From the NCBI RefSeq assembly GCF_020080045.1, contig NZ_CP083451.1, forward strand, positions 4,203,001 to 4,267,000: 64,000 nucleotides of DNA, read 5' to 3'. Shown here piece by piece: positions 2,690 to 63,688 of the stretch; the stretch's first letter is position 1; every line of letters starts with the position of its first letter. The position numbers and the translations under genes were made by a program. The notes under the pieces were generated by a model, which saw only the letters and a list, made by a program, of their open reading frames with translations, was not told the DNA's origin and made no database searches. This DNA is from Comamonas odontotermitis (GTDB lineage Bacteria; Pseudomonadota; Gammaproteobacteria; Burkholderiales; Burkholderiaceae_C).

Positions 2690-2740
2690 CAGGCCCCTGG
2701 CGCCCATCTCATATGCGCCAGCAGCTATGAAAAAAATAGT
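2690..2740. repeat. Dispersed 3'-end repeat, copy 1 (after fba)
   Basis: A full copy of the window's short repeat. A CTGGCGC...GCGCCAG stem (2697-2703 and 2715-2721) is followed by GCAGCTATGAAAAAAATAGT. It ends two bases from the fba stop codon. See the findings for the family. Confidence 0.6.
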
Positions 2741-2742
2741 AT

Positions 2743-3807
2743 TTACTTGACCAGCTGGGCCAGCTCGCCACCGGCGTACTTCTTGGCCATCTGTTCCAGG
2801 CTGTAGCCCTTGATCTTGGCGCCCTGGCCTTCGCAGCCAAACTCGATGTAACGGGTCTTGCACACCAGCTTGGCGGCTTCGCGGGCGGGCTTGAGCCATT
2901 CGCGAGCGTCGAACTTGTCGGGGTTCTCCGCCATGAATTTGCGCACGGCGCCGGTCATCGCCAGGCGGATGTCGGTATCGATATTGATCTTGCGCACACC
3001 GTACTTGATGGCTTCCTGGATTTCCTCGACGGGCACGCCGTAGGTTTCCTTCATCTTGCCGCCGTACTGGTTGATGATGGCCAGCAGCTCCTGCGGCACC
3101 GACGAGGAACCGTGCATCACCAGGTGGGTGTTGGGAATGCGGGCGTTGATTTCCTTGACGCGGGAAATCGCCAGGATGTCGCCCGTGGGCTTGCGCGAGA
3201 ACTTGTAGGCGCCGTGGCTGGTGCCGATGGCGATGGCCAGCGCGTCCAGCTGCGTGGCCTTCACGAACACGGCCGCTTCCTCCGGGTCGGTCAGCATCTG
3301 GCTGTGGTCCAGCTTGCCCACGGCGCCAATGCCGTCTTCCTCACCAGCGTCGCCGGTTTCCAGGTTGCCCAGGCAGCCGAGCTCGCCTTCCACGGTAGCG
3401 CCTACCTTGTGCGCCATGGCGACGACCTTCTGGGTCACGTCCACGTTGTAGTCAAAGGACGACGGCGTCTTGCCGTCGCTCATCAGCGAGCCATCCATCA
3501 TCACCGAGCCAAAGCCCAGGTTCAGCGCGCCCTGGCAGATCTCGGGCGTGGTGCCATGGTCCTGATGCATGACCAGGGGGATGTGGGGGTACATCTCGGC
3601 CGCAGCCTGGATCAGGTGCTTGATGAAGGGCTCGCCAGCGTACTTGCGGGCGCCGGCGCTGGCCTGCAGGATCACGGGCGCGCCGACTTCGTCAGCTGCC
3701 GACATCACGGCCTGGACCTGTTCGAGGTTGTTCACGTTGAAGGCGGGGATGCCATAGCCGTTTTCGGCAGCATGGTCCAGCATTTCGCGCATCGAGATCA
3801 AAGGCAT
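2743..3807 (-). CDS. fba: Fructose-bisphosphate aldolase, class II
   Basis: A 354-residue zinc-dependent aldolase that interconverts fructose-1,6-bisphosphate with dihydroxyacetone phosphate and glyceraldehyde-3-phosphate, in glycolysis, gluconeogenesis or the Calvin cycle. D83 and H84 in HQDHGTT are the proton-donor and metal-ligand motif. The [10 protein letters not shown] segment, the GTSHGAYKF phosphate loop and the NIDTDIR motif are all present. Its length and spacing match the Calvin-cycle-type subfamily of class II aldolases. The start at ATG 3807 matches the family N-terminus. A terminator follows the gene and a hairpin precedes its start codon. Confidence 0.95.
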
Positions 3808-3834
3808 GGTCGTCGGGTCCGTTCTAATACAAAG

Positions 3835-3861
3835 AAAAAGCGCTGCAGCCGCTGCTGCAGC
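3835..3861 (-). terminator. Hairpin with T-tract between the two-component operon and fba
   Basis: Two copies of the self-complementary GCTGCAGC (3842-3849 and 3854-3861) can pair across a four-base loop. On the minus strand GCTTTTT follows. It could terminate the upstream sensor-kinase transcript. It lies only 28 bp before the fba start codon, so it could also be part of an fba leader. Confidence 0.5.
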
Positions 3862-4049
3862 ACCCTCGATTTATTTACGCATTGCCAGCACCACCCCGCA
3901 AAACGCAGGATTTGCGAAAAGACAAAGGGCCGGCAGGCAAGGCTCGGCGGCGTCTCAAGGCGGTTTCAGCAACTCCAGGCGGCAACCAACAGGCCTGTAA
4001 AGGCAGAAAAAGGCCGGTAACCGCTTGGTAACTGCCTATTTTAACAAGC

Positions 4050-5417
4050 TCAGGCGGCCGGTATCGCCGGCATACCGAGGCGATAGCAAGTGGTATAGGG
4101 TGCGGGAGCCGCCGTTTGCCCGAAACTGCCATGGTGCAAGGCCATGATGCGCTGGGTGATTTCATGGCCCAGGTGCAGGCTGTCCACGGGCTCCGCAGCG
4201 GCGGTCTGCCCGGTGCGACCGCCATCGTCGCACACCTGGAGCCAGCAATGGCCGCCCTCCGCAGCGTCGTCCAGGCCGCCCTGCACCTCGATCTGCGTGC
4301 CGGGTGGCGTGTGGCGCAAGGCGTTTTCCACCAGATTGCGCAAAGCCACCTCCAGCAGCACGGCATGGCCGCTCACCCACAAGGCGTCGGGCATTTCCAC
4401 AGCCAGACTGCCGCCATGCTGCCAGGCAGCCTGCGCATATTCGGCCGCCACGGTGCGCGCCAGTTGCGCCACATCGACGGGCCGGGCCTGCTGTGTCAGC
4501 GCCACCCGGCTGCTGCGTGCCAGCGCGAGAATCTGGTTCAGCACATGGCCTGCGCGCAAGGCATCGCTGCGGATGCGCTCCACCGCCTGCGCCTGCTGCG
4601 GCTGCGGCAGCCCTCCCTGCAGGGCCTGGGCGTGCAGGCTGATCGATGCGAGCGGCGTGCGCAACTCGTGCGCCACCTCATTGGCGAGTTTGCGCTCGTG
4701 CTCCATGGCCTCGTCGTTGCGGTCGAGCAAGGTGTTGATGGAGTACGTGACCGCACGGAATTCCTGCCAGTCATGGCCGGTGGACAGGCGCTGGCCCTGC
4801 TCGGGCTGCAGCGCTTCCACATCCCTGGACAGCTGGTGCAGCGGCCTGAGACCGGCGCGTATCGTCAGCCCCAGCACCAGAGTGACCACCGGCAGCAGCC
4901 ACAGGCCGGGCAGCACCATCTGGCCCGCAATGTCGTCGGCCAGATCGTCGCGCTCCTGCAGGGCCACCATCACCGTCACCTTGCGGGTGTGCTCGGCGTT
5001 CCATTGGGTAAAGGTGCGCCACGACTGCTTTTTCTCGCCCAACTGCGCATCGAAGAAACCTTCGCGCTCATCAGCGAACTTCAGCCGGGGCGCGCTGCCC
5101 ACATTGAGCAGCATATTGCCCTGGTCGTCCCACAACTGCATGCTCATGGACTGCTGGTAATCGTGGGCGCGCAGGCCGGGCAGCGCCACTCGCGGCGTCG
5201 TCTTGCCCTGGGCAAAGGCGTCGGAGACTGGCAGGTTCAGCACCAGGGCCGCCACGCTGGCGAGATGGCCATCAGTCAACTCATCGGCCTCTTCCACGCC
5301 TGCCTGGTAGCCCCAGAATACGAAGCTGGCCCACACCACCACCAGCGCCCCCAGTATCCATACCTGCAGACGCGTCTGCAGGCGCGGCAGCCGCTGCGAT
5401 GCGGCAGATGCATTCAT
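4050..5417 (-). CDS. Sensor histidine kinase, PmrB/QseC-like, with divergent ATP-binding motifs
   Basis: A 455-residue inner-membrane kinase. It has one N-terminal membrane helix (about 18-40), a periplasmic sensor region, a second helix (about 165-190) and a linker. The dimerisation H-box is AHELRTPLASIS with His250. The N-box NLVENALRH is intact. The G-boxes are unusual: the DxGxG position reads CDDGGRTGQ, and the glycine-rich lid is reduced to LHLGHEITQRI. The gene overlaps the upstream response-regulator stop codon by four bases (ATGA), so the pair is translationally coupled. Kinase or phosphatase activity is inferred from the family, and the weak G-boxes make ATP hydrolysis uncertain. 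Confidence 0.85.
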   Translation of the reverse strand: MNASAASQRLPRLQTRLQVWILGALVVVWASFVFWGYQAGVEEADELTDGHLASVAALVLNLPVSDAFAQGKTTPRVALPGLRAHDYQQSMSMQLWDDQGNMLLNVGSAPRLKFADEREGFFDAQLGEKKQSWRTFTQWNAEHTRKVTVMVALQERDDLADDIAGQMVLPGLWLLPVVTLVLGLTIRAGLRPLHQLSRDVEALQPEQGQRLSTGHDWQEFRAVTYSINTLLDRNDEAMEHERKLANEVAHELRTPLASISLHAQALQGGLPQPQQAQAVERIRSDALRAGHVLNQILALARSSRVALTQQARPVDVAQLARTVAAEYAQAAWQHGGSLAVEMPDALWVSGHAVLLEVALRNLVENALRHTPPGTQIEVQGGLDDAAEGGHCWLQVCDDGGRTGQTAAAEPVDSLHLGHEITQRIMALHHGSFGQTAAPAPYTTCYRLGMPAIPAA

Positions 5418-6115: not shown

Positions 6116-6150
6116 GCCAGCCATTGTGCATGAGGGCGCCCCGCTTCTAC

Positions 6151-6178: not shown

Positions 6179-6901
6179 ATGCTGCATGCCATGCAATCGT
6201 CTCCGCGTCTTCCGCTTCCCGCCAACGCCAGTTCCACCCCCACCACCCGCTGGATCGTCATCTCACTGATCGGTTTCGTGCTGGCCTCCTTCTGGGATCT
6301 GGCCGGGCAGGATGTCGCCATGGCCCGCTGGTGGGGTACGGCCCAGGGCTTTGCACTGCGTGACAACCCTTTTCTGGTGAACTACATGCACGAGGTGATG
6401 CGCATGCTCGGCTGGATCATGGTTGTCGTCCTCAGTATTGGCGTGTGGTTGCCTTTTGGCGCATTGCGCCGTTTGCCCACGGCCCGGCGTGTGCAATTGG
6501 TGGTAGGCATTCTGATCGCGCTGGCCGCGGTAGCCATCGTCAAGCGCAGCAGCGCCACCAGTTGCCCCTGGGATCTGCAGCTGTTTGGTGGTGTGGCCGA
6601 TTACGTGTCGCACTGGCGCTGGGGCGTGCGTGATGGCGGTGGCGGCCACTGCTTTCCTGCTGGCCATGCAGCCGCTGGCTTTGCCTTTTTGGGCGGCTAC
6701 TTTGCGCTGTACCGCGATGCCCCGCGTGCTGCGCGCTGGTGGCTGGCGGTGGTTCTGGTGGTGGGCTTCGCCCTTGGCATCGGCCAGCAGATGCGCGGCG
6801 CCCACTACATGAGCCACACCCTGTGGACCGCCTGGCTGTGCTGGACGGCCGGCCTCGCCGTGGATGCAATTGTGCAGCGGCACAAGGCGATGCATGCTTG
6901 A
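6179..6901 (+). CDS. PAP2-superfamily membrane phosphatase
   Basis: A 240-residue polytopic protein of the PAP2 (phosphatidic acid phosphatase type 2) family. Signature blocks are K122-R123 for motif 1, CFPAGH at 158-163 for the PSGH motif, and R206 with H213 (MRGAHYMSHTLWT) for motif 3. Members dephosphorylate lipid phosphates, including lipid A and undecaprenyl pyrophosphate, at the periplasmic face. It is divergent from the PmrAB-like system across a shared putative binding site, so lipid A or envelope phosphate modification is a reasonable inference. The substrate is not shown. ATG 6191 is an alternative start. Confidence 0.85.
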   Translation: MLHAMQSSPRLPLPANASSTPTTRWIVISLIGFVLASFWDLAGQDVAMARWWGTAQGFALRDNPFLVNYMHEVMRMLGWIMVVVLSIGVWLPFGALRRLPTARRVQLVVGILIALAAVAIVKRSSATSCPWDLQLFGGVADYVSHWRWGVRDGGGGHCFPAGHAAAGFAFLGGYFALYRDAPRAARWWLAVVLVVGFALGIGQQMRGAHYMSHTLWTAWLCWTAGLAVDAIVQRHKAMHA

Positions 6902-6909: not shown

Positions 6910-6944
6910 GCTACTTTTTTGATAGCATTCGATGCTTATTCCAA
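6910..6944. repeat. Dispersed 3'-end repeat, copy 2 (after PAP2 gene)
   Basis: A partial copy: GCTAC, a T-run, GATAGC, then GCTTATTCC. It begins eight bases after the phosphatase stop codon. Confidence 0.5.
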
Positions 6945-7010
6945 GGATCCAAAACGGTATCTTCTACACTAGTTTCTGCACTCGCGGTCCGTCACCCGGT
7001 TTTCCATAAG

Positions 7011-7044
7011 AAAAAGCCTCTGGCGCCTGCATGGCAAGCGCCAG
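7011..7044 (-). terminator. Rho-independent terminator after pyk, formed by a dispersed repeat
   Basis: CTGGCGC (7020-7026) pairs with GCGCCAG (7038-7044). On the minus strand the stem is followed by AGGC and five Ts (complement of 7011-7015), about 40 bp after the pyk stop. The stem is the core of dispersed repeat copy 3. Confidence 0.75.
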
Positions 7045-7063
7045 AAGCTCATTTTTCGATGGC
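7016..7063. repeat. Dispersed 3'-end repeat, copy 3 (after pyk)
   Basis: GCCTCTGGCGC, an 11-base loop, GCGCCAGAAGCT, then a degenerate AT-rich arm. It has the same architecture as the copy after fba, and its stem doubles as the pyk terminator. Confidence 0.6.
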
Positions 7064-7083
7064 AAAAATCCCGATGCCCGGTA

Positions 7084-8529
7084 TCACACCACCCGGGAGA
7101 TCTTCATCATGTTCGTGCCACCGGGCGAGCCCATGGGTTCGCCGCAGGTGATGGCGTAGATATCGCCACTTTGCACAATGCCACGCGCCTTGAGGTGCAC
7201 CTCGGCCTGGCCCAGAGCCGTATCGCGGTCGGCGCTGGTATCCATCAGCAGCGGACGGACGTTGCGGTACAGCGCCATCTTGCGCTGCGTGGCCACCTTG
7301 GGGGTAAGCGCGTAGATCGGGATCTGCGTGCGGTGGCGGCTCATCCACAGCGCCGTGGAGCCGCTGTCGGTCATGGCCACCAGGGCCTTGGCGCCCAGGT
7401 GCGTGGCGGTGAAGAGCGCGCCCAGCGCAATGCTCTGGTCGATACGCTGGAAGGTCTTGCCGACGAAGTCGGTGTCTGCCGCCCAGTCGGCCGAAGCCTC
7501 TGCGGCAGCGCAGATGGCAACCATCTCCTGCACGGTTTCCAGCGGGAACTTGCCAGCTGCCGTCTCGGCGCTCAGCATCACTGCGTCGGTACCGTCGAGC
7601 ACGGCGTTGGCCACGTCGCTCACCTCGGCGCGCGTAGGCACGGGGTTGGTGATCATGCTCTCCATCATCTGGGTGGCGGTGATGACGACCTTGTCCATCT
7701 CGCGCGCCAGGCTGATCATCTTCTTTTGCAGCGCAGGCACGGCGGCATGGCCCACTTCCACGGCCAGATCACCACGCGCCACCATGATGCCGTCGGAGAC
7801 ACGCAGAATGTCTTCGAGGTGCGGAATGGCTTCGGCGCGCTCGATCTTGGCAATCAGGCCGGGGCGGTGGCGGTATTCGGCTGCAGCCACCATGCACAGC
7901 TGGCGCGCCATTTCCATGTCGGTTGCTGTCTTGGGGAAGCTGACGGCCACATAGTCGGCCTGGAAGCTCATCGCAGTCTTGATGTCTTCCATGTCCTTGG
8001 CCGTGAGCGCTGGCGCCGTCAGGCCTCCGCCCTTCTTGTTGATGCCCTTGTTGTTGGACAACTCGCCACCGAGCTTGACCGTGGTGTGGACAGCATCGCC
8101 GCGCACACTGTCCACCGTCAGCACGATCAGGCCGTCGTTCAACAGCAGCACATCGCCCGGTCTCACATCGCGCGGCAGTTCCTTGTAATCCAGGCCCACG
8201 CCGTTGATATCGCCAGGCTCGGTACGGCTGGCATCGAGCACGAACTTGGCGCCCGGCTCCAGCATCACCTTGCCTTCTGCAAACTTGCCGACACGGATCT
8301 TGGGGCCCTGCAGATCGGCCATGATGGCCACTTCACGGCCGGCACGCTGCGCCGCATCGCGCACCATGCGGGCACGGTCCACATGGTCCTGCGCCTTGCC
8401 GTGGCTGAAATTGAGGCGCACCACATTCACGCCCGAACGGATCATCTCTTCCAGCAGCGCCGGATCGCTGGAGGCTGGGCCTAAGGTGGCAACAATCTTG
8501 GTGGCGCGGCGAATCTTGGGGGAAGCCAT
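7084..8529 (-). CDS. pyk: Pyruvate kinase
   Basis: A 481-residue glycolytic enzyme transferring phosphate from phosphoenolpyruvate to ADP. The N-terminal substrate site reads VVRLNFSHG, and the active-site signature is IAKIERAEAIPHLEDIL. MVARGDLAVEVG is the metal-binding loop, and the C-terminal domain is full length. ATG 8529 matches the family start (KIRRATKIVATLGPAS). It is a single gene on the minus strand with its own terminator. A 10-bp palindrome (CTGTATACAG, 8589-8598) lies 60 bp upstream. Confidence 0.96.
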   Translation of the reverse strand: MASPKIRRATKIVATLGPASSDPALLEEMIRSGVNVVRLNFSHGKAQDHVDRARMVRDAAQRAGREVAIMADLQGPKIRVGKFAEGKVMLEPGAKFVLDASRTEPGDINGVGLDYKELPRDVRPGDVLLLNDGLIVLTVDSVRGDAVHTTVKLGGELSNNKGINKKGGGLTAPALTAKDMEDIKTAMSFQADYVAVSFPKTATDMEMARQLCMVAAAEYRHRPGLIAKIERAEAIPHLEDILRVSDGIMVARGDLAVEVGHAAVPALQKKMISLAREMDKVVITATQMMESMITNPVPTRAEVSDVANAVLDGTDAVMLSAETAAGKFPLETVQEMVAICAAAEASADWAADTDFVGKTFQRIDQSIALGALFTATHLGAKALVAMTDSGSTALWMSRHRTQIPIYALTPKVATQRKMALYRNVRPLLMDTSADRDTALGQAEVHLKARGIVQSGDIYAITCGEPMGSPGGTNMMKISRVV

Positions 8530-8748: not shown

Positions 8749-8797
8749 AAGCTACATTTTCAATAGCATTTTGCGTGTGCTTCATATATTTACAGGT
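8749..8797. repeat. Dispersed 3'-end repeat, copy 4 (overlaps the end of pepP)
   Basis: AGCTAC...CAATAGC followed by a degenerate GCGTGTGCTTCATATATTTACAGG arm in two parts. It abuts and includes the pepP stop codon at 8790-8792. Confidence 0.5.
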
Positions 8798-10226
8798 CTG
8801 CCGGGGCTGGCGCGCCATCGCGCATCAAGGCCTCGATCTCATCGGCTGCCACCGGCACGCCGCGCGTCAGAAGCTCGCAACCCGTTTCGGTGATCAGCGC
8901 GTCATCTTCGATGCGGATGCCGATGTTGTGGAACTGCTCGGGCACACCCTCGGCCGGGCGTACATAGATACCAGGCTCGATGGTGGAGACCATGCCCGCG
9001 CGCAGGATGCGGCTGGGGCGGTTGATGATCAGCTCGCCCGAGAGCGGATCGCGCCGCTCGCTGATGTGCCCCACCTCGCTCGGCTCCACATAGTTGCCGC
9101 AGTCATGCACATCCATGCCCATCCAGTGGCCGGTACGGTGCATGTAGAACTGGAAGTAATTGCGGTTCTCGATCACGTCCTGCACACTGCCGACCTTGTT
9201 GCCGTCCAGCAGGCCCAGGTCCAGCATGCCCTGCGCCAGCACCGCCACCGTGGCGTCATGCATGTCATTGAAGCGCTTGCCAGGCACGGCAAGTGCAATG
9301 GCGGCATCCTGGCTGGCCAGTACCAGGTCGTACAGCGCGCGCTGCGGGCCGCTGAATCTGCCATTGGCCGGAAAGGTGCGGGTGATGTCGCTGGCGTAGC
9401 CGTCGAGCTCACAGCCGGCATCGATCAGCACCAGATCACCGCTTCTGACGGGCGCGGCATCCGCACGGTAGTGCAGCACGCAGGCATTGGCCCCTGCCGC
9501 CACGATGGAGCCGTACGCCGGGTACTGCGAACCGTGCTCGCGAAAGGCCTGCAGCAGCTCGGCATCCAGGTGGTACTCACGCACATCCTTGCCTGCGCGC
9601 AGCATGCGTGCAGAGCGCTGCATGGCCAGCACATGGGCGCGCGCACTGATGGCACCTGCGCGGCGCAGGATGGCGATTTCGTGCGCATCCTTGATGAGGC
9701 GCATCTCGTCCAGGATCGCACACAGGTCACGCTGCTGCTCGGGCACCAAGGCGCCATAGCGGGTACGGGCGCGCACGGCATTGAGCCACTTGGCAACCAC
9801 GCCTTCGAGCCCCGGGTGGATGGCAAACGGATACCACACCACCGTGCGGTTTTCCAGCATCTTGGCCATGCGTGCATCCTGCTCCGTGATGGCAAAGGCT
9901 TCGCTCACACCCAGCGCTGGCACGGCGGCATCGGGCCCCAGGCGGTAGCCATCCCAGATTTCGCGCGCCAGATCCTTGGGCGCACAGAACAGGGTGCTTT
10001 TTCCATCAGCCGTGATCACCAGCGTTGCGTGCGGCTCGGTAAAACCCGTCAGGTAGTAGAAATAGCTGTCGTGGCGATACAGGTAGTCGCTGTCGCGGTT
10101 GCGCGGGTGTTCCGGCGCCGTAGGAATGATGGCAATGCCACCCTCGCCCAACTGGCGGGCGACCTGGGCGCGGCGCTCGGCATAGATGGCTTGGGCGGGG
10201 ATGGCGGGGACGTTGTTGTTCTGCAT
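8790..10226 (-). CDS. pepP: Xaa-Pro aminopeptidase (aminopeptidase P)
   Basis: A 478-residue M24 metallopeptidase that removes N-terminal residues preceding proline. The N-terminal aminopeptidase-P domain is followed by the pita-bread domain. Dinuclear metal ligands are visible: two Asp in LIDAGCELDGYASDITRTF, His in HRTGHWMGMDVHD, Glu in STIEPGIY and Glu in IRIEDDALIT. The length matches E. coli PepP (about 440) with a modest extension. It is divergent from the Nudix gene and followed by a clear terminator. Confidence 0.93.
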   Translation of the reverse strand: MQNNNVPAIPAQAIYAERRAQVARQLGEGGIAIIPTAPEHPRNRDSDYLYRHDSYFYYLTGFTEPHATLVITADGKSTLFCAPKDLAREIWDGYRLGPDAAVPALGVSEAFAITEQDARMAKMLENRTVVWYPFAIHPGLEGVVAKWLNAVRARTRYGALVPEQQRDLCAILDEMRLIKDAHEIAILRRAGAISARAHVLAMQRSARMLRAGKDVREYHLDAELLQAFREHGSQYPAYGSIVAAGANACVLHYRADAAPVRSGDLVLIDAGCELDGYASDITRTFPANGRFSGPQRALYDLVLASQDAAIALAVPGKRFNDMHDATVAVLAQGMLDLGLLDGNKVGSVQDVIENRNYFQFYMHRTGHWMGMDVHDCGNYVEPSEVGHISERRDPLSGELIINRPSRILRAGMVSTIEPGIYVRPAEGVPEQFHNIGIRIEDDALITETGCELLTRGVPVAADEIEALMRDGAPAPADL

Positions 10227-10308
10227 GGTTCTATCCTAGCGCTGCTCCCAAAGCCCTGCAGCCATAACGCTGCCTCGCCTGCGGAAATTGGGGTAAACAC
10301 CATCACTC

Positions 10309-10371
10309 ATAATTTGATAGCTATCCGCACCCCATACACAAGCGCCAGCTTTGGTATTGACCCTAAAAACC
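10309..10371. repeat. Dispersed repeat, copy 5 (pepP-Nudix divergent region)
   Basis: AATTTGATAGCTAT, a degenerate middle, CAAGCGCCAG, then TTGACCCTAAAAACC. It is in inverse orientation to copies 1 and 3, and it is the only copy I found between divergent genes. Confidence 0.55.
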
Positions 10372-13907: not shown

Positions 13908-13935
13908 GGTGGCTTCTTGCAGTTTTGGCTTTGTC

Positions 13936-13972
13936 GCTACCTATTTAATAGCTATTGGCGCTTTATTTGCTT
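13936..13972. repeat. Dispersed 3'-end repeat, copy 6 (encodes the end of the hydrolase)
   Basis: AATAGCTATT and GGCGCTTTATTTGCTTG in tandem overlap the 3' end of the YcaC-type gene. They supply its last codons (K-A-P-I-A-I-K) and its TAG stop. Confidence 0.55.
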
Positions 13973-14591
13973 GCACTGCACGCGAATAGCTGTTCATCAG
14001 ATTGCGGTAGTCAGGGATGTGGTTGCTGAACAAGGTGCCCAGCCCTTCCACATCGTTGCGCCAGTCGCGGTGCAGCTCACAGGCCACGCCAAACCAGGTC
14101 ATCAGCTGAACACCCGCTGCCTCCATGCGGCGCCAGGCCGAATCGCGGGTGATTTCATTGAACGTGCCCGATGCATCGGTCACCACGAACACCTCAAAGC
14201 CTTCTTCGATGGCCGCCAGCGCTGGAAAGGCCACGCACACCTCGGTCACCACGCCGGCAATGATCAGTTGCTTCTTGCCGGTGGCCTTGATGGCCTTGAC
14301 GAAGTCTTCGTTGTCCCAGGCATTGATCTGGCCGGGGCGTGGAATGAACGGCGCCTTGGGGTGTGCCTGCACCAGTTCAGGCACCAGCGGGCCGTTGGGG
14401 CCGTCTTCAAAGCTGGTGGTCAGGATGGTGGGCAGCTTGAAATAGTTGGCCAGGTCGCTCAGCGCGAGCACATTGTTCTTGAACTTGTCGGGATCGATAT
14501 CGCGCACCAGCGAGAGCAATCCCGTCTGGTGGTCCACCAGCAGCACGGCGGCATTGTCTTTGTCGAGGCGAACATAGGGCTTGTGGGACAT
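13941..14591 (-). CDS. Isochorismatase-like cysteine hydrolase, YcaC family
   Basis: A 216-residue cysteine hydrolase. AAVLLVDHQ holds the catalytic Asp near residue 20, and VVTEVCVAFPA holds the nucleophilic Cys, with the cis-peptide motif just before it. YcaC proteins are octameric and of unknown physiological substrate. ATG 14591 is preferred over ATG 14597 because AAGGA then lies six bases upstream. The extreme C-terminus (KAPIAIK) is encoded by a dispersed repeat. A 22-bp palindrome resembling a regulator site lies 130 bp upstream. Confidence 0.85.
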   Translation of the reverse strand: MSHKPYVRLDKDNAAVLLVDHQTGLLSLVRDIDPDKFKNNVLALSDLANYFKLPTILTTSFEDGPNGPLVPELVQAHPKAPFIPRPGQINAWDNEDFVKAIKATGKKQLIIAGVVTEVCVAFPALAAIEEGFEVFVVTDASGTFNEITRDSAWRRMEAAGVQLMTWFGVACELHRDWRNDVEGLGTLFSNHIPDYRNLMNSYSRAVQANKAPIAIK

Positions 14592-14720
14592 GGTCATTCC
14601 TTTTCAGATCATTGGGCAGGCCTACCTGCCTGGAGCGTCTGCAACGAAGATTCGTGCCTAACGCCTGGAATGAATATTAATGATGGAACGATCAAAGATA
14701 AATCACTGAAATTTGCATTC

Positions 14721-22796: not shown

Positions 22797-25700
22797 ATGC
22801 CACCACGCACTCCGACCATTCCCAATGCCGCCCTCGATCTGCACGCCGAACTGGGTGAACCCCCGGCGCAGGACGATGGCCGCTACCTGGGTGCGCGCCT
22901 GGCGCACAGCCGCATCTCCATCCGTGGCGCACGCACCCACAACCTCAAGAACATCGATCTCGACATCCCGCGCCACCAGCTGGTGGTGATCACCGGGCTG
23001 TCGGGCTCGGGCAAATCGAGTCTGGCGTTTGACACCCTGTATGCCGAGGGGCAGCGCCGCTATGTCGAGAGCCTGTCGGCCTATGCGCGCCAGTTCCTGG
23101 GTCGGCTCGACAAACCCGATGTCGACCTCATCGAAGGCCTGTCGCCAGCCATCTCCATCGAGCAGAAGGCAACCAGCCACAACCCGCGCTCCACCGTGGG
23201 CACGGTGACCGAAATCCACGACTACCTGCGCCTGCTGTATGCCCGCGCCGGCACGCCGTTCTGCCCGGACCACAACCTGCCGCTCGCGGCGCAGACCGTG
23301 AGCCAGATGGTGGATGCGATCCTGGCGCTGCCGCAGGACACCAAGCTGATGATCCTCGCCCCCGTGGCGCGCGGCAAGAAGGGCGAGTTCGTCGAGCTGT
23401 TCGCCCAGATGCAGGCGCTGGGCTATGTGCGCTTTCGGGTCGATGGACAGATGTACGAGCACGAAGCGCTGCCGCCTCTGGCAAAGAACGAGAAACACGA
23501 TATCGACGTGGTGATCGACCGCGTCAAGATCCGCCCCGATGTGCAGCAGCGCCTGGCCGAGAGCATTGAGGCGGCGCTGCGCGTAGGCGGCAACGAAGGT
23601 AATGGCCGTGTGCTGGCCATGGAGATGGACACCGGCAAGGAACATCTGTTCAGCAGCAAGTTCTCGTGCCCGATCTGCAGCTACGCGCTGGCGGAGCTGG
23701 AGCCGCGGCTGTTCTCGTTCAACTCGCCCCACGGTGCCTGCCCTTCCTGCGACGGCCTGGGCGTGCATGAGGTGTTCGACGTTGACCGCGTCGTGGCATT
23801 CCCCTCGCTGAGTCTCGCCAGCGGCGCGATCAAGGGCTGGGACCGCCGCAATGGCTATTACTTTGCCATGCTGGAGAGCCTGGGCCGCCACTACAAGTTC
23901 GACATTGAGCAGCCTTTCGAGAGCCTGCCGGACAACGTGCGGCAGGTGGTGCTGTACGGATCGGGCAGCGAAGACATCGCCTTCAAGTACGAACTGGCCA
24001 GCGGCGAAAACGCAGGCAAGCTGATCACCAAGAAACACCCCTTTGAAGGCATCCTGCCCAATATGGCAAGGCGCTATCGGGAAACCGATTCCAGCATCGT
24101 GCGCGATGAGCTCTCGCGCTACCAGAGCGTGCAGCCCTGCCCCGATTGCCACGGCGCGCGCCTGCGCCGCGAGGCACGCTTTGTGCGCGTGGGCGAAGGG
24201 GACGAGGCCCGTGCCATTCAGGACGTGAGCCATGTCACCCTGGCCGAAGCCTATGACTGGTTCAGCCATCTGCACCTCTCCGGCGCCAAGGCCGATATCG
24301 CCGCGCGCGTGATCCACGAAATCCGCACGCGCCTGCAGTTCCTCAACGACGTGGGCCTGACCTACCTCAGCCTGGACCGCAGCGCCGAAACGCTCTCGGG
24401 CGGCGAGGCGCAGCGCATCCGGCTGGCTTCGCAGATCGGCAGCGGCCTGACGGGGGTGATGTACGTGCTCGACGAGCCCTCCATCGGCCTGCACCAGCGC
24501 GACAACGACCGCCTGATCGCCACCCTGATGCACCTGCGCGACATCGGCAACAGTGTGATCGTGGTCGAACACGACGAAGACATGATGCGCGCGGCCGACC
24601 AGATCATCGACATGGGACCAGGCGCCGGCGTGCACGGTGGCCGGGTGATGGCACAGGGCAGCTATGCCGACATCTGCGCCAATGCGCAGTCGCTGACTGG
24701 CCAGTACCTGAGCGGGAAAAAGACCATTGCCGTACCCCCGCGCCGCACCCCCTGGCTGCCGGTGCTGGAGGGCACAGTGGGAGCACCTGCGGGCAAGCCC
24801 GAGGGAGCCAAGGCGGAGTCGCATTTTCCGACCGTGGAAGCCTCTCTCGCCAAGAAGACTCCCAAAAAGGGAGCAGTCAGCGCTCGCCAGTCAAGCGCAA
24901 GCAATACATCCGGCATCAAAAACATCGATCCGCACGCCGTGCAGACCCTGCGGGTGGCGGGCGCCAGCGGCCACAATCTGCACCATGCCACGGTGGATTT
25001 TCCGGTAGGCCTGTTCACCTGTGTGACCGGTGTCTCGGGCTCGGGCAAATCCACGCTCGTCAACGACACCTTGTACGCTGCGGCGGCGCAAAAGATCAAC
25101 CGCGCGCAGGGCGATGTGGCGCCGTATGACGAGATCGAGGGGCTCGACTACTTCGACAAGGTCATCAACGTGGACCAGTCCCCCATTGGCCGCACGCCGC
25201 GCAGCAACCCGGCCACCTACACTGGTCTGTTCACGCCCATCCGCGAGCTGATGGCCGAGACCAACACCGCCAAGGAACGCGGCTACGGCCCAGGACGCTT
25301 TTCCTTCAACGTGGCCGGTGGCCGTTGCGAAGCCTGCCAGGGCGATGGCATGGTGAAGGTGGAGATGCATTTTCTGCCTGACGTGTACGTGCCCTGCGAT
25401 GTGTGCCACGGTCAGCGCTACAACCGCGAAACCCTGCAGGTGCAGTGGAAGGGCCAGAACATTGCGCAGATACTGGACATGACGGTGGAGGATGCGCACA
25501 CCTTCTTCAAGGATGTGCCGACCATCGCGCGCAAGCTGCAGACCTTGTTGGATGTGGGCCTGTCGTACATTCGCCTGGGTCAGAGCGCGACCACCCTGTC
25601 GGGTGGCGAGGCGCAGCGTGTCAAGCTCGCGCAGGAGCTCTCCAAGCGCGACACCGGCCGCACGCTCTACATTCTGGACGAGCCCACCACCGGCCTGCAT

Positions 25701-25937
25701 TTTGCCGATATCGACCTGCTGCTGAAGGTGTTGCACCAGTTGCGCGACGCGGGCAACACCATCGTCGTGATCGAGCACAACCTGGACGTGATAAAAACCG
25801 CCGACTGGGTCATCGACATGGGCCCAGAGGGCGGTGCAGGCGGCGGCCAGGTGGTAGCACAGGGCACCCCCGAAGAAGTGGCAGCCAACCCGGCAAGCCA
25901 TACCGGGCGGTATCTGGCGCCTTACCTTCAGGCCTGA
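22797..25937 (+). CDS. uvrA: Excinuclease ABC subunit A
   Basis: A 1046-residue damage-recognition ATPase of nucleotide excision repair. It carries two ABC modules, each with a Walker A ([10 protein letters not shown] and [10 protein letters not shown]) and an LSGGEAQR signature, plus zinc-finger Cys pairs (CPICSY...CPSC, and CEAC...CDVC). An extra linker of about 70 residues lies between the modules (from about PPRRTPW to the NIDPHAV stretch). ATG 22797 is chosen. ATG 22662 would add 45 residues with no uvrA character. It is transcribed away from the MFS gene. Confidence 0.95.
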
Positions 25938-29029: not shown

Positions 29030-29983
29030 ATGTCTTCCTCTTCTTCGTCGTCGCCCCCGTTCAGCCCCCGGGATTTGATGCTCGCCATGGCCGTCGTTGT
29101 GATCTGGGGGGTGAATTTCGTGGTGATGAAATGGGGTCTGCGCAGCCTCACGCCCTTTGAGCTGGGCGCCATGCGCTATATCTGCGCGGCGTTTCCGCTG
29201 GTGCTGTTCATCAAGCCGCCCAAGGTGCACTGGCGCTGGGTGGTGCTGTTTGGCCTGCTGCAGGGCGTAGGGCAGTTCGGCTTTCTGTTCACGGCCCTCA
29301 AAGTCGGCATGACGGCGTCGCTGGCCAGCGTGATTCTGCAGACCCAGGTGTTTCTGACAGCCGTATGGACCTGGGTGCTGTTGCGCGGCAAGCCCGCACG
29401 CCCTTTGGTGGCGGGCATGTGCATTGCCGCACTGGGCCTGGGCTGCCTGCTAGTCAATGAGCTGCGCAGCAACGGCACGGGCGGCACCACGCTGGCAGGC
29501 CTGCTGCTGGTGCTGTGTGCGGCCACCTCGTGGTCCTGCTCGAACGTGGTGGTGCGCCTCGCGCAAAAGGAAAACGCCAGCTACGACCCGATCGCCTTCA
29601 TCACCTGGGGCAGCCTGATGCCCATCATTCCGTTCATCGCGCTCTCGGCCTGGCTGGACGACGGCGATATTGGCAGATGGACACAGTTGCAGACCTGGCA
29701 GCAGATTCCGCTGCTGGCGTGGGCGTCCATTGCCTACCTGGGCTGGATTGCAACCACCATCGGCTACGGGCTGTGGACACAGCTGATCCAGCGCTACTCC
29801 GCCAATCGCGTGGCGCCCTTCAGCCTGTGTGTACCGGTGATTGGCCTGTCCACCGGCATGCTGATGCTGGATGAAAAGGTGACACCCTGGCAGTGGGCTG
29901 GCGCCGTGCTGGTAGTGCTGGCACTGGTGGTAGTGATCTGGGGTGGACAGCTGGTGGAGGCTGCGCGCAGGGAGCGTCTATAA
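29030..29983 (+). CDS. eamA: EamA-type exporter (cysteine/O-acetylserine exporter-like)
   Basis: A 317-residue, ten-helix DMT-superfamily transporter. VVVIWGVNFVVMKWGL opens the first EamA repeat. The second repeat includes WSCSNVVVRLAQKE and ends at helices around VIGLSTGMLMLDEKVTPWQW. The pattern closely follows E. coli EamA, which exports O-acetylserine and cysteine; that substrate is an inference. The N-terminus after ATG 29030 is a run of serines. A dispersed repeat begins directly after the stop codon. Confidence 0.82.
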   Translation: MSSSSSSSPPFSPRDLMLAMAVVVIWGVNFVVMKWGLRSLTPFELGAMRYICAAFPLVLFIKPPKVHWRWVVLFGLLQGVGQFGFLFTALKVGMTASLASVILQTQVFLTAVWTWVLLRGKPARPLVAGMCIAALGLGCLLVNELRSNGTGGTTLAGLLLVLCAATSWSCSNVVVRLAQKENASYDPIAFITWGSLMPIIPFIALSAWLDDGDIGRWTQLQTWQQIPLLAWASIAYLGWIATTIGYGLWTQLIQRYSANRVAPFSLCVPVIGLSTGMLMLDEKVTPWQWAGAVLVVLALVVVIWGGQLVEAARRERL

Positions 29984-29985
29984 AA

Positions 29986-30037
29986 CAGCCTCCTGCGCTG
30001 GATCATAAAAGCGCAATTTGCTATTTATTTTATAGCG
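29986..30037. repeat. Dispersed 3'-end repeat, copy 7 (after eamA)
   Basis: GCCTCCTGCGCTGG, ATCATAAAAGCGCAATTTGC and TATTTATTTTATAGC succeed one another in the same order as copies 1 and 3. It starts two bases after the eamA stop. Confidence 0.6.
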
Positions 30038-30069
30038 AAATGGTGCGTTATCAGCCCCACACCTTTCCG

Positions 30070-33714: not shown

Positions 33715-33745
33715 AAAAAACGCACTATCAAAACGATAGTGCGTT
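33715..33745 (-). terminator. Rho-independent terminator after the lipoprotein pair
   Basis: AACGCACTATC (33719-33729) pairs with GATAGTGCGTT (33735-33745), an 11-bp perfect stem. The minus strand continues into TTTTTTATT. Confidence 0.88.
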
Positions 33746-53505: not shown

Positions 53506-53541
53506 CACGCTATTCATTCAATAGCAATTCAGCGCTTGGCC
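53506..53541. repeat. Dispersed 3'-end repeat, copy 8 (encodes the end of mltA)
   Basis: GCTATTCATTCAATAGC followed by AGCGCTTGGC. On the minus strand the repeat's CAAGCGC encodes the last residues and is followed by TGA, the mltA stop. Confidence 0.55.
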
Positions 53542-59344: not shown

Positions 59345-62300
59345 TCAGTGCGACGGCTCTGCCTGCTTGTCCGCCGCAGCGGCACGCTGAATGCGCCGCA
59401 CCTCCGGGTCCGCCCAGGAACCCGAGACTTCGAACTGCTGCGTCACCGCCTGCGTGATCTGCCCCTTGAACAGCGCCTGCGCCAGAAAGCTGCCGATACC
59501 GATGACAGGGTTGATGGCCGTCGTCACCAGCGACAAGGTGGTGGTGTTGAGCTCGGGGATGACCACCACATGCAGGTTCTGGGTTTCATCGCGCAGATTG
59601 ACCTTGCCCTCCAGCAGCACAGCGGCGGTCACACCTTTCATCTGCAGGTTGGTGGTGGAGGCCAGGCCATCGTGGATGTCCACATCGCCACGCACAAAAT
59701 CAAAACCGAACCCGGCGCTGAAGATGTCCTTGAAATCCAGGGTCAGCCGACGCGGCAGCGCCTGCAGGTTGAGCACGCCCAGCAGCTTGGCAATGCCCGG
59801 CTCCACTTTGAGGAACTGGCCCTGCCCCACGTCCACATGCAGCTTGCCGTCCATGCTGGTGTAGTCGGGGCTGAGCGGGCTGCCCGTCCATGCAATGCGC
59901 CCTTGCAGAACACCCTTGCCCCTGCTCACCACACCGGCCATACCCAGGCGACGCAGCAGATCGCCCGTGTCCTTCAAATCGAGCCGCATGTCGAGCTGCG
60001 TGCGGCGCGCGCCCTGCGCAGCAGGCCCGACGGCTGCCGCTTGGACGGCCCCCGCTTGGACGGCCCCCCAATCTCCACTCGCCTGCAGGCTGGCGGCGTC
60101 GTTGCTCAGCACCATCTGCTGCAGGTGCCACCACGACTGCGCGCCCTGGCTGCGGTTGCTGGCCTGCAAATCCAGCCGACCGACAGAGTGGCCGTGCCAG
60201 CGCAGGTCATCCACGACAATGTCGAGCGCAGGGAGGCGCCGCGGCTGCTCATTGCTGTCGTCCTCTGCAGCTGGCGCCTTGCTCTCGTCGCTGCTTTTCT
60301 TGTCCACCCGCAATTGCGACAGGCGCGCGCGCACCGTGCCGGGGCCGCCCTTCTCCTGCACATAGTCGAGCTGACCGTCCAGCAGGCTGGAGCGCACCTC
60401 GCTGCTCCAGCGATCACCCTTGCGCGACCCGCGCATCTGCAATTGCTGTACTTCCATGCCCCGCACCTGCAACGCGCCCACACGCACATCCCAGTGGTCA
60501 GGCAGGTAATCGGCCACGAGATCGCTGCTGCCGATGGTGCTGCCGGCACTGCGCGCTGCGGTCTGCCCGGAAGGCGGAGCCGCAGCCGGGCCTGCCGCAG
60601 GCTCCAGCCGCTGCAGCGCGGTTTGCCAGGCCTGCACGTCCAGCCGTGGGAACTCGATCTCCGCTGCCACGCCCTTGGCTGGCAGGGCCAGCGCACCGCT
60701 GCCCAGGCGGATGGCACCACTCACCACCTTGGCCGGTGTCGCCGCATCGGCATCCCATTCGCGCACGTAGCGCACCTGCGCCCTGCCCGCAAGATCAAAG
60801 TCAATGGTTTCTCGCACGGGGCTCTGCCCAGCAGAGGCCGCACTTTCCGGTACCGTGGATGCAAAGTGCATGGGCCAGCTCTCGGCCTGGGCCTTTTGCA
60901 GCGGCGGCGGCAAGTTCAGCGCCATACCCTGCAGATCGCTGCGCACGTCCACCAGGGGCACCCCACGCGCCATGCTGATGCGCAATTGGTAGGCCGCCTG
61001 CCCTTGCGCGAGCCGGGCCAGTTGCACGGCGGGCCCCAGCTCCTGCGCCTGCAGCAGGCCTTGTACGGTGGCGATGCCGCTGGCGCGGACATCCACGGCC
61101 GGGCCGTGGTCTGCACCGGGAGGGAGTTTGCTCACGTCCATGCCGCCCGCAAACTGCACCGCTCCCCCCAGGGCCTCACCCTTCAAATCCTGCAATGCAA
61201 AACCATGTTCGGAAAACTGCACGGCCCCCGTGACCTGCTGCACCTCGGGCGCATCGCTGTGGAACTGGATGCGGTTGCCGGCCAGCAACACCTTGCCATC
61301 GACCTTGGCCTTTTCCATATGGTGCACCGGCAGATCGAGCTTGAGCTGCAACTGCGCTTCGCCATCGGCCTGCGTCTGCGCCAAAGCGCCGTCGGTGAGT
61401 GCATCAATGTGCGATTTGCGCACCGTGTTCAACATATCGACCAGTGGCCCGCGCGCGCGCGCATTGACGGCGACCGTGGTGTCGTGAAAATCTGCAATCC
61501 TGGCCGTGGCCTGTTCCACGCGGATGCGCTCGTTGCCGTCCAGGATGCCTTTGGCCTGGTTAACCTGCATGCCTGGGCCGTCAAACACCAGCTCTCCCGA
61601 GAGGCGGTTGAGCTCCGGCCAGGGCTTTTCGCCCGGCAACAGGTGCGAAGCGGGCACGTAGGCATAACGCACATCGCGCACGGGAGCCGTGATCCGAAAA
61701 ACGCCCTGCCCCCGATCGCGGAAAGGCACATCCCACAGATCGCCTTTGATCTCGAACTGCACATTGCTCGCCTGGCCCGCCAGAATGGCATCGCGCACAT
61801 AGTGGCGCGCATCGGGAGGGATGTGCAGCGGCAGATAGCGGTGAACCATGGTGCCATCGGCGCGCTCCAGCGCCCCTTTGAGCTGCAGAATGCCGGGAAA
61901 GCGAGACTTAGCTCCCGATTTTTCCGGATCAGCCGTGTGCCAGGACCAGCGCGCATGGCCCGCAGCGTGCGGATTGGCAAATTCCAGCTTCTCCGACTGC
62001 ATCTGGATCTGGTCGCCCGCCACGGTCCAGCTCAGCTGGGTGTGCGCTGCGGTAATCGGCAACAGTGGCTCCTCAAACACGGTAGGCAGATAAAGCGCCC
62101 CATCGGCAAAGCGCACGGTCGCCTCGCCCCCTGCGGCGCTGGCGTTCAGCTGCAAGTCGAGGCCGCGCAGGCCCCAATGCGCATCCCGCGCGCCGAGCAC
62201 CAGTCCGCCATGTTCGTCGCGCGCTGCGTTGGCGCGCACGGGAGCAGCAGGCATGCCAAAGTCCAGGTGCCCCACATCGGCCTTGACGCGCCAGTCCTCG

Positions 62301-63688
62301 ATCTTGTCGGCATCCCCGCCGCGCCAGTGCGCCGAGGCTTCACGGATCAGGCCCGCAGGCCGGTTGCTCACCAACCACTGGCGTACATCGGCAGGAATGG
62401 GCAACAGCCGCGCCAGCTCGGCCAGAGATGCGATATCGAGCGATTGCGCGCTGGCTTCCGTCTCACTGGGCTGCTTGCCCTGGGCATACACGTGGTTGAT
62501 GCGCACACTGCCACCGGGCCACTGCTGGCCCTGGGCCGATTCCACGGCCAGCTTGTCGGTAAAGAGGCGAAAGCCGGTTGCATCGGCCTTGCCTCCCAGC
62601 CGTCCGTGTACCGAGCGCAGCAGCAAAATCGGAGTTTCGTCCGCCGGCTTGCTATTTTTTTGAGAGCTACCAGCGCTTACTGGTCGTTCACCAGCCGCAG
62701 CTTTTTCTTCGAAAAGCGCAAAATTGCGCCGCATGCCGACATCGCGCAATGCCACATCGGCAGTTCCATTCTTGATCTGGCCGCGTTCCACATCGATCCA
62801 CAGGCGTGCAGAACCCAGCCCTTGCTGCAACCCGACCGAAGGCGGCAGGTAGGGTGCCATGGCAGCGGCATTGAGCTGCTTGGCCTCGGCGTAAAGCTGG
62901 CCGCTCCAGTGTTTCCAGTTGCCATCGTGCAACGCCCAGATTGGCTGGCGCATGCGGCCGCGCAGCTCCAGCACATCGCCCCAGTCGGCAGGCGGGCGGG
63001 CGCTGATCTGCCATTCATGGCGCAGGCCGGGGTTGCGCAGCAGAATATTCACATCGCGCAGGGTGACCAGCGGCAGGCCGCGCAACTGGTCGTCCCACAC
63101 CACGCTGCCGCCTTGCAGCACCACTTCGCGCTGGCGGAACAGCCAGTCCGCCGCGCCGCTGGAGTCACTCTGCCCCGATGTCGCCACAGGAATCCCCGCC
63201 ACGTGCAGAGCGCCATCGACCGTGCGCTGCACCACCAGTTGCGGCGCAACAATGGCAATCTGCTCGGCCCGCAGTCGCAGCAGCGACGGTACCGACAGGG
63301 CAACTTTCACTTCCGGCAGTGCCAGACCGGCTGCGCCATCGGGCTGCAACAGCTGAACCCCCCGCGCCGCAATGGCGGGCACCAGGCCGTTGTCGCCATC
63401 GGCCTGCAGCGACTCGATGCGCACGGGTACGCCCAGCAGCTGCGACAGGCGAGATTCCACTTGCGGGCGAAAGTCATTGATACGCGGCACAATCCACCAG
63501 TGCAACGCCGCCACGGCCACTGCCAGGAGCAATGCCGCAACCAGCAAAAGCCTCAAAGCCCATTGCACCAGTGTGGCAAGAGGCCGGAGCAGTCGGGACG
63601 CGCGCACAGTCAATGAAGTCCAATCAGTAGGGGAAAGAAGAATTATGGCCCGCGGCAGCCTCGCAGCTTGCATTTCAGATGTGAACAT
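59345..63688 (-). CDS. YhdP-family AsmA-like envelope protein (TIGR02099)
   Basis: A 1447-residue protein with one N-terminal membrane helix (about 40-65) and a very long periplasmic beta-rich body. Members of this AsmA-like group (YhdP, TamB, YdbH) are thought to carry phospholipids between membranes. VPRINDFRPQVESRLSQLLGVPV and the C-terminal GKVNLRDETQNLHVVVIPELNT are characteristic. An in-frame piece near residue 343 (VSAGSSQKNS) is encoded by a copy of the dispersed repeat. ATG 63688 or 63673 could be the start. It is divergent from glnE. Confidence 0.88.
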   Translation of the reverse strand: MFTSEMQAARLPRAIILLSPTDWTSLTVRASRLLRPLATLVQWALRLLLVAALLLAVAVAALHWWIVPRINDFRPQVESRLSQLLGVPVRIESLQADGDNGLVPAIAARGVQLLQPDGAAGLALPEVKVALSVPSLLRLRAEQIAIVAPQLVVQRTVDGALHVAGIPVATSGQSDSSGAADWLFRQREVVLQGGSVVWDDQLRGLPLVTLRDVNILLRNPGLRHEWQISARPPADWGDVLELRGRMRQPIWALHDGNWKHWSGQLYAEAKQLNAAAMAPYLPPSVGLQQGLGSARLWIDVERGQIKNGTADVALRDVGMRRNFALFEEKAAAGERPVSAGSSQKNSKPADETPILLLRSVHGRLGGKADATGFRLFTDKLAVESAQGQQWPGGSVRINHVYAQGKQPSETEASAQSLDIASLAELARLLPIPADVRQWLVSNRPAGLIREASAHWRGGDADKIEDWRVKADVGHLDFGMPAAPVRANAARDEHGGLVLGARDAHWGLRGLDLQLNASAAGGEATVRFADGALYLPTVFEEPLLPITAAHTQLSWTVAGDQIQMQSEKLEFANPHAAGHARWSWHTADPEKSGAKSRFPGILQLKGALERADGTMVHRYLPLHIPPDARHYVRDAILAGQASNVQFEIKGDLWDVPFRDRGQGVFRITAPVRDVRYAYVPASHLLPGEKPWPELNRLSGELVFDGPGMQVNQAKGILDGNERIRVEQATARIADFHDTTVAVNARARGPLVDMLNTVRKSHIDALTDGALAQTQADGEAQLQLKLDLPVHHMEKAKVDGKVLLAGNRIQFHSDAPEVQQVTGAVQFSEHGFALQDLKGEALGGAVQFAGGMDVSKLPPGADHGPAVDVRASGIATVQGLLQAQELGPAVQLARLAQGQAAYQLRISMARGVPLVDVRSDLQGMALNLPPPLQKAQAESWPMHFASTVPESAASAGQSPVRETIDFDLAGRAQVRYVREWDADAATPAKVVSGAIRLGSGALALPAKGVAAEIEFPRLDVQAWQTALQRLEPAAGPAAAPPSGQTAARSAGSTIGSSDLVADYLPDHWDVRVGALQVRGMEVQQLQMRGSRKGDRWSSEVRSSLLDGQLDYVQEKGGPGTVRARLSQLRVDKKSSDESKAPAAEDDSNEQPRRLPALDIVVDDLRWHGHSVGRLDLQASNRSQGAQSWWHLQQMVLSNDAASLQASGDWGAVQAGAVQAAAVGPAAQGARRTQLDMRLDLKDTGDLLRRLGMAGVVSRGKGVLQGRIAWTGSPLSPDYTSMDGKLHVDVGQGQFLKVEPGIAKLLGVLNLQALPRRLTLDFKDIFSAGFGFDFVRGDVDIHDGLASTTNLQMKGVTAAVLLEGKVNLRDETQNLHVVVIPELNTTTLSLVTTAINPVIGIGSFLAQALFKGQITQAVTQQFEVSGSWADPEVRRIQRAAAADKQAEPSH
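62650..62683. repeat. Dispersed repeat, copy 9, inside the YhdP-type coding sequence
   Basis: TTGCTATTTTTTTGAGAGCT then ACCAGCGCTTACTGG. The repeat is read in frame on the minus strand and adds residues VSAGSSQKNS to the protein. Confidence 0.55.

Follow-up and report, generated by a model that had tools for sequence, protein, structure and literature searches.

A dispersed, REP-like palindromic repeat family sited at gene 3' ends in Comamonas odontotermitis and its relatives

Repetitive extragenic palindromic (REP) sequences are sited at the 3' ends of genes, and in Escherichia coli their stem-loops stabilise or protect the 3' ends of mRNAs. Stem-loop families have also been surveyed more broadly, reportedly by Petrillo et al. 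in 2008. The stem of REP sequences is described as being immediately preceded, on its 5' side, by a conserved tetranucleotide that is most often GTAG (PMC8266576). In Betaproteobacteria, including Comamonadaceae, the BRE repeat (Hot et al. 2011, PMC3110155) is presented as usually intergenic and sometimes located in genes, with a length of ~90 bp, a mean GC content of 69% in Bordetella, occasional tandem arrangement and at most 29 copies per genome by the criteria of PMC3110155. Systematic families of dispersed stem-loops are the subject of PMC2267715, which names Bordetella and Neisseria among the beta-proteobacteria. Here we analyse a repeat found in a 64,000-nucleotide stretch of the Comamonas odontotermitis genome (assembly GCF_020080045.1, contig NZ_CP083451.1, positions 4,203,001 to 4,267,000; hereafter, the window), for which a first-pass annotation made from the letters alone had proposed a non-coding family, mobile or transcript-ending, at the 3' ends of genes. 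A dispersed repeat family does exist in this genome, and we consider it fairly probable that it is an old, REP-like palindrome family of Comamonadaceae whose members act as 3'-end hairpins.

The family was delimited with a nucleotide profile seeded with GCGC-N11-GCGC copies and grown over three rounds; exact CTGGCGC-N-GCGCCAG-type sites with an 11-nt loop have common flanks. The searched DNA amounted to 820 kb of the 4.83-Mb query genome (by pyruvate kinase, the nearest among the named records listed is Comamonas sp. B21-038, at 96%), consisting of a 420-kb contiguous stretch and 400 kb in 20 stretches, a biased set, most of them having been picked around exact matches; the training copies of the profile come from these same 820 kb. 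Density and placement were counted in the contiguous stretch only, and the terminator, edge, tetranucleotide and target-site duplication counts, as well as the alignment of dispersed copies, use both sets. The profile detected 130 strand-resolved loci at E<=0.1 and 100 at E<0.001 in the 820 kb (66 and 45, respectively, in the contiguous stretch) and none at E<=0.1 in Markov-resampled and reversed DNA. A strict palindrome pattern retrieved 15 sites across the query genome compared with 0 for the reversed control, and the reversed pattern was absent from all ten genomes given the strict-pattern search. A covariance-model scan of the query genome yielded at least 150 matches, some of them the two strands of one palindrome; the covariance-model counts are lower bounds, with the best 150 (query), 124 (relatives), 96 (genus) and 25 (family) candidates scored per genome. 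Extrapolation from the 45 strict loci in 420 kb would give ~500 copies per genome, and the true number is probably in the hundreds. The first-pass annotation had set a genome scan as a test, and the outcome of few copies is excluded by these counts. At gathering score, Rfam 15 returned 0 matches in the window and, in four element-bearing stretches, only FMN and tRNA.

The element is ~66 bp long and has sharp edges, its information content equalling the background outside about positions -7 to +61. In the REP-like orientation it consists of GCTAT-N7-ATAG, a GC stem built around GCGC-N11-GCGC (11-nt loop) with sides of about CTGCTGGCGC and GCGCCAGCAG, and a T-rich end. Mean GC is 45% in the copies vs 62% across the 420 kb. 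The tetranucleotide immediately 5' of the stem is ATAG in 67 of 100 copies, followed by AGAG (12), GTAG (4) and GGAG (3). The AT arm is enriched with precisely this 7-nt loop (13 instances in 420 kb), all other loop lengths from 0 to 24 giving 0 or 1 each, and the stem covaries among 66 dispersed copies, with 86 double-change cells vs 47 +- 5.7 after shuffling and at most 46 in slid controls. A longer variant has two half-elements around an inner AT-rich hairpin (about C1:4037580-4037680, 4131754-4131850 and 4395174-4395270); paired halves around a longer insert are also present at the pyk loci of the congeners G015 and G016. The 55 copies at E<=0.01 in the 420 kb are separated by a median gap of 4.8 kb, and the two gaps below 300 nt both correspond to overlapping halves of this long variant.

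Placement relative to genes, based on a codon-score caller written for this analysis and used for the query genome and G160 (gene starts are uncertain), is far from random. The 45 strict copies fall into 16 convergent, 18 tandem and 1 divergent gap, with 10 inside genes; random intergenic positions would be 12% convergent, 61% tandem and 27% divergent, so that the copies are over-represented in convergent gaps (p=1e-6) and under-represented in divergent ones (p=4e-4). The distance to the stop codon is at most 40 nt in 27 of 34 copies, nine of them with negative values because they overlap the stop, vs a random median of 71. The pattern is repeated in G160, a member of another genus of the family (g137), whose 52 copies in 400 kb comprise 9 convergent, 23 tandem, 2 divergent, 3 over a gene 3' end and 15 in-gene copies, with stop distances of at most 40 nt in 29 of 32 copies vs 30% of random intergenic positions. 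Random positioning with respect to stop codons, the second outcome for which a test had been suggested beforehand, is thus excluded, and the initial description of a dispersed non-coding family sited at gene 3' ends is borne out. Orientation relative to genes (same vs opposite) showed no clear bias, either among the strict copies of the contiguous stretch (11 vs 7 in tandem gaps, 7 vs 9 in convergent ones) or in the scattered stretches (18 vs 12 and 6 vs 10, respectively).

The family extends well beyond the query genome. In a first search of relatives, the covariance model matched 23 of 41 genomes, namely the query and 22 of 24 congeners, and at the same stringency it matched none of the 16 genomes taken one each from 16 further families in the order. 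Family-wide, matches at E<=1e-4 were obtained in 60 of 200 genomes, representing 47 of 141 genera; the phrase 'in this lineage' used at first reading was therefore too narrow. At the same threshold 43 of 53 genomes of the genus are positive, with 0 to at least 96 matches per genome. Among named contigs around pyk, 8 of 80 had profile matches at E<=0.01, including Comamonas, Rhodoferax and Polaromonas. Copy number correlates negatively with GC content over 23 congeners (Spearman -0.73, with GC taken from ~20 kb of each genome and counts above 96 entered as 96); GC content as the sole cause of low copy number was rejected, the copy-rich G160 having 65.5% GC.

Comparison with relatives points to vertical inheritance accompanied by turnover. 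The nearest relative, G252, is 91% identical over 381 kb of alignments, and 400 kb of its genome contain 44 copies at E<=0.1. The 66 query copies correspond in G252 to 35 occupied sites, 21 sites of similar or greater length without a profile match, 3 shorter sites, which retain part of the element, and 7 without flank. Conversely, the 44 G252 copies correspond in the query to 36 occupied sites, 7 without a match (none of them shorter in the query) and 1 without flank. None of the 24 comparable non-matching sites, 14 viewed as alignments and 10 judged by length alone, is a clean empty site, and the alignments viewed show decay and substitution with no clean insertion. G013 is 81% identical over 209 kb of alignments, with 14 of 66 sites shorter and 36 without a usable flank; because identity is only 81%, the shorter sites give unsafe boundaries. 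Gene ends with a copy at E<=0.01 also have one in the relative in 22 of 52 cases for G252 and 1 of 26 for G013. In the more distant G015, the comparison covers 96 orthologues: a copy is present at 6 of the 18 gene ends that bear one in the query and at 4 of the remaining 78 (p=0.003). Each of these two counts includes one pair of facing genes that have a single element in common. Occupancy in G252 and G015 therefore indicates that the positions are old but turning over, so that the comparison of orthologous sites suggested in the first-pass annotation reveals largely inherited positions. In intergenic copies compared between query and G252 (28 sites), the GCGC sides and AGCTAT are 8% changed vs 15% in the flanks. 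The copies at C1:4277227, 4389178 and 4409526, in or at the edge of genes, correspond in G013 to element-free stretches that are equal or almost equal in length; by eye, the first of these (C1:4277227-4277295, a strong copy of 35 bits) appears to encode a protein signal peptide, and its G013 counterpart has the same length without the element.

The stems also differ among lineages in their perfectly paired arms, scored as CTGG:CCAG:CTAG. The ratio is 7:3:0 in the query (10 of 15 sites perfectly paired), 1:8:0 in G253 (9 of 14), 1:6:4 in G247 (11 of 20) and 0:5:14 in G015 (19 of 26), a difference among four genomes matched by 0 of 20000 permutations; this test covers perfectly paired arms of these four and leaves out G252, G160, G125, G055 and G002. 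Counted separately, G252 has a ratio of 0:4:0 (4 of 7 sites, all CCAG). Old positions combined with local dialects imply either per-lineage bursts of spread or homogenisation in place.

The best-documented site is the end of fba, the class II fructose-bisphosphate aldolase gene. The profile detects the element 3-10 nt past its stop in 14 of 21 Comamonas genomes, and a hairpin is present in 17 of 21 when G001, G003 and G004, below the profile threshold and judged by eye, are included; among these three, one has its GCGC core changed to GTCC/GGAC and one carries a GC-rich version. The alignment of these 17 orthologous sites (G013, decayed, and G006, G022 and G009, without element, were dropped) contains 22 cells changed on both sides vs 7.0 +- 2.5 after shuffles that keep the relatedness among genomes in the statistic, and 8 of 14 pairs with a double change vs 4.3 +- 1.2, slid controls reaching at most 9 cells. 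On this comparative evidence, the fba hairpin is shown to be maintained across the genus by compensatory changes. It fails the terminator score (d=-53; a score of d'Aubenton Carafa form) and is followed by a separate terminator-like hairpin (d=26 as scored in the query genome).

At pyk, which encodes pyruvate kinase, 15 of 23 genomes have a copy no more than 200 nt from the stop, at 25-35 nt past it in the query and G252 and at 56-124 nt in the others; because these distances differ, the pyk copies are probably not the same event in all genomes. The query copy is a predicted intrinsic terminator (d=46, tail TTTTTCTT, RNA fold z -4.8), which supports its original description as the pyk terminator, and in G013 and G254 another GC-rich hairpin with a T-run stands at the pyk end instead of the element. 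GC-rich T-run hairpins were seen at the pyk end of G007, G013, G017 and G254. In many Comamonas, for example G253, G016 and G018, a GC-rich repeat of ~90 nt (CCCCCTGAG..GC..CTTCCCCC..) occurs between the pyk stop and the element; it could be the published BRE. Over the whole set, 19 of 100 copies pass the terminator score on at least one strand, 10 of them on both, whereas no letter-shuffled copy (0 of 100) and no random piece (0 of 150) passes. Having a copy does not raise the pass rate of gene ends (17 of 63 vs 41 of 165 without one). The transcript-ending role proposed at first is thus supported, as intrinsic termination, for a minority of copies only and does not set copy-bearing gene ends apart.

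The query genome has one REP-associated tyrosine transposase (RAYT) homologue (Y1_Tnp, 233 aa, C1:3779842-3780543), scoring 57.7 bits for an NCBIfam cut-off of 80, and most congeners have one match. No element copy was found within 7 kb of this gene in the searched stretch. Dependence of the family on RAYT was rejected within the genus, where Y1_Tnp is present in 29 of the 33 congeners rich in the element and in 10 of the 12 poor in it (p=0.65; 45 of 53 genomes, the 8 with 4-8 matches having been left out), and in 30 chosen genomes of other genera (13 of 15 rich vs 11 of 15 poor, p=0.65). The element-rich G055 (genus g32) has 20 Y1_Tnp matches, several equal-scoring and some split over two frames, a set that suggests a recently active IS200/IS605-type element. 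Target-site duplications did not exceed the permuted control for k=2-9 in 76 copies. Present mobility, as entertained at first reading, finds no support, given this result and the absence of clean insertions relative to G252 in either direction.

Sharp edges, high copy number, siting at 3' ends, avoidance of divergent gaps, vertical inheritance with turnover and compensatory change at the fba hairpin make up the established part of our interpretation as an old family of 3'-end hairpins. In this interpretation, a hairpin formed in the mRNA just past the stop codon would fix the transcript 3' end and protect it from 3'-to-5' exonucleases, and in the minority of copies with a U-run after the stem the hairpin itself would be an intrinsic terminator, sometimes a bidirectional one; spread in the past may have involved a REP-transposase-like enzyme. 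We favour 3'-end definition or protection, with termination as a subset, because few copies and no excess of gene ends pass the terminator score. A number of observations weigh against it. By number of pairs, covariation in the set of 66 dispersed copies is at the shuffled level (9 pairs doubly changed, shuffled mean 9.0), the RNAalifold covariation term is just -0.05, and the orthologous covariation comes from a single site, fba. Most window copies fold no better than shuffles (|z| of 2; ten spans), the copy at 7001-7068 and the span around 8749 being those that exceed them. Between query and G252, the loop (27% changed) and the inner arms (24-36%) evolve faster than the flanks (15%), and the A-tract and distal ATAG (18-19%) no slower, so that the core alone is conserved, and in-gene copies are without this core conservation (17.5% changed). 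Ten of the 45 strict copies are inside genes, where a role at 3' ends is not obviously applicable. Codon bias, a proxy for expression that was not used further, barely differs between copy-bearing genes and others (p=0.053), and the occurrence of the REP transposase does not track the family. Finally, the clade of G013 (G007, G013, G017, G019, G251 and G254) is almost copy-free, with 1 copy in 400 kb of G013 and 4-8 matches per genome vs at least 96 in the query; the element is therefore dispensable.

Other explanations account for part of these data. Discrete edges, a near-palindromic form, lineage-specific stem dialects, the wide range of matches per genome within the genus and the RAYT homologue are all compatible with a non-autonomous mobile element, either a miniature inverted-repeat transposable element (MITE) or a REP mobilised by a TnpA-REP enzyme, which would be spreading to this day with a preference for gene ends; we nevertheless hold this to be unlikely given the lack of clean gains vs G252, the lack of target-site duplications, a transposase homologue that is below the cut-off and distant from any copy, and the unrelatedness of Y1_Tnp presence to abundance. 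An equally doubtful view is that of a family made up above all of bidirectional intrinsic terminators, which would explain the pyk copy, the copies passing the score on both strands, the preference for convergent gaps and the T-run hairpin that replaces the element at pyk in G013 and G254, but is at odds with the 81 of 100 copies that fail on both strands, the equal pass rate of gene ends without copies, and the fba copy, which fails and has its own terminator behind it. Another candidate process is homogenisation of the motif where it stands, with no transposition involved, through conversion or a factor recognising the sequence, a mode of evolution also proposed for uptake sequences. Dialects that differ among congeners, even between the query and G252, while some positions are old would agree with this process, as would the three sites of equal length in G013, where no insertion is visible. 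At 81% identity, however, decay of an older insertion explains equal length equally well, the dialects were counted on few sites (49 over four genomes, and 4 in G252), and a motif of 66 nt is much longer than known uptake sequences, all of which makes such homogenisation very unlikely. Palindromes arising by chance in GC-rich DNA are a further explanation. Plain GC hairpins lacking the other element parts do exist (of 45 such sites in the query genome, 23 have a loop length that is not 11), but the absence of profile matches in shuffled and reversed DNA, the zero for the reversed pattern in ten genomes and the positions common to several species already refute this explanation. A more speculative and rather improbable extension of our interpretation as 3'-end hairpins starts from the combination of old positions with stems that drift together into lineage-specific dialects without visible transposition. 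Recognition of the ATAG-stem unit in trans, by an RNA- or DNA-binding factor or through conversion among the copies, would then coordinate their evolution, and the copies would form a family-wide code for transcript 3' ends, one open to wholesale loss of the kind seen in the G013 clade.

The copies and related features of the window are listed below, the spans including margins around the profile match.

2678-2745, minus strand: element (30.8 bits, E 1.8e-7) directly 3' of the stop of fba (2743-3792, minus strand, NCBIfam).
2653-2677, minus strand: intrinsic terminator (CCTGCAG..CTGCAGG + T7; d=26), distinct from the fba element and lying beyond it.
6910-6926, unstranded: AT arm only (GCTAC-N7-ATAGC), 8 nt 3' of the stop of a plus-strand gene ending at 6901; no profile match.
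7001-7068, minus strand: element and predicted intrinsic terminator (32.3 bits), ~25 nt past the stop of pyk (7084-8529, minus strand, NCBIfam).
8751-8767, unstranded: AT arm only, 22 nt 3' of the stop of a Xaa-Pro aminopeptidase-type gene (8790-10226, minus strand); no profile match.
10300-10367, plus strand: weak, decayed element in a divergent gap (13.8 bits, E 0.04; z -0.2; G252 counterpart 16.2 bits).
13931-13998, plus strand: half element, AT arm and one stem side (17.4 bits, E 0.003).
24853-24920, plus strand: element within uvrA (22797-25937, plus strand, NCBIfam; 21.9 bits, E 1e-4; G252 counterpart 17.2 bits).
29973-30041, minus strand: element over the TAA stop of an EamA-type transporter gene (29078-29983, plus strand, Pfam; 27.5 bits; G252 counterpart 22.4 bits).
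53509-53525, unstranded: lone AT arm, 3 nt downstream of the stop at 53529 in an MltA-type gene; no profile match.
62646-62713, plus strand: element within a yhdP-type gene (59345-63547, minus strand, NCBIfam/Pfam) with the frame open (22.5 bits, E 7e-5; G252 counterpart 14.6 bits).

The profile match of the fba copy stops 3 nt short of the fba stop, and its strand is that of the REP-like orientation, with the ATAG arm 5' of the stem. In the span around 8749 the AT arm is the tip of a long hairpin (fold z -5.8), and the plus strand of the 62646-62713 copy does not fold stably (z +0.2). Two further weak matches lie at 33719 and 36536. The first-pass annotation had counted nine similar elements, each with an AT arm and a GC stem. 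Six of them are profile matches (four at E<0.001, one at 0.003 and one at 0.04), and the remaining three, at 6910, 8749 and 53506, consist of the AT arm alone, so that both parts occur in six of nine at best; the copy inside uvrA and the two weak matches had been overlooked. It had placed six copies at a gene 3' end, whereas seven of nine lie within 25 nt of a stop or over it, four of them (2690, 13936, 29986 and 53506) within about 3 nt, the exceptions being 10309, in the divergent gap, and 62650, inside the yhdP-type gene. Its sixth copy does supply a stop codon, the TAG at 13941-13943 of a YcaC-type gene (13941-14597, minus strand, NCBIfam) lying within the AT arm, but its eighth does not quite do so, since that stop, at 53529, falls 3 nt beyond the arm. 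The lone AT arms (GCTAY-N7-RTAGC) at 6910-6926, 8751-8767 and 53509-53525 are all near stop codons and may be relics or a separate motif.

If these repeats do act as 3'-end hairpins, a large repeat family, not found in the literature that we searched, would mark gene 3' ends in roughly one in three of the genera sampled across the family. The repeat would aid transcript-end annotation and account for part of the intergenic DNA, and it would provide a natural series of orthologous hairpins in which to study upkeep, loss and replacement by terminators. Its independence from the REP transposase would also bear on how REP-like repeats spread and persist.

Among known systems, MITEs are characterised by a target-site duplication, a feature absent from the 76 copies tested here. 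Intrinsic terminators share the stem and T-run with a minority of copies, including that of pyk, but 81 of 100 copies fail the score and fba has a separate terminator. The families of PMC2267715 are, like this one, dispersed stem-loops, and the main text of that paper does not name Comamonas or Delftia. A literature search that included element sequence strings, with subscription journals mostly outside its reach, retrieved no paper on this repeat outside BRE. BRE resembles our element in being a Comamonadaceae repeat that is usually intergenic and at times in-gene; going by the published description only, the element is set apart by its length of ~66 bp, its 45% GC, its single copies and its greater number. 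The closest likeness is with REP sequences, with which it shares a hairpin-forming palindrome (20-50 nt in REP), many copies and mostly intergenic locations. Its tetranucleotide is conserved as in REP but is a different one, ATAG in 67 of 100 copies and GTAG in 4. Unlike REP, it occurs as single copies without clusters of the bacterial interspersed mosaic element (BIME) type, has an extra AT arm, and its abundance does not track RAYT. With both the RAYT association and the clustering failing, the element is REP-like and is not filed as REP.

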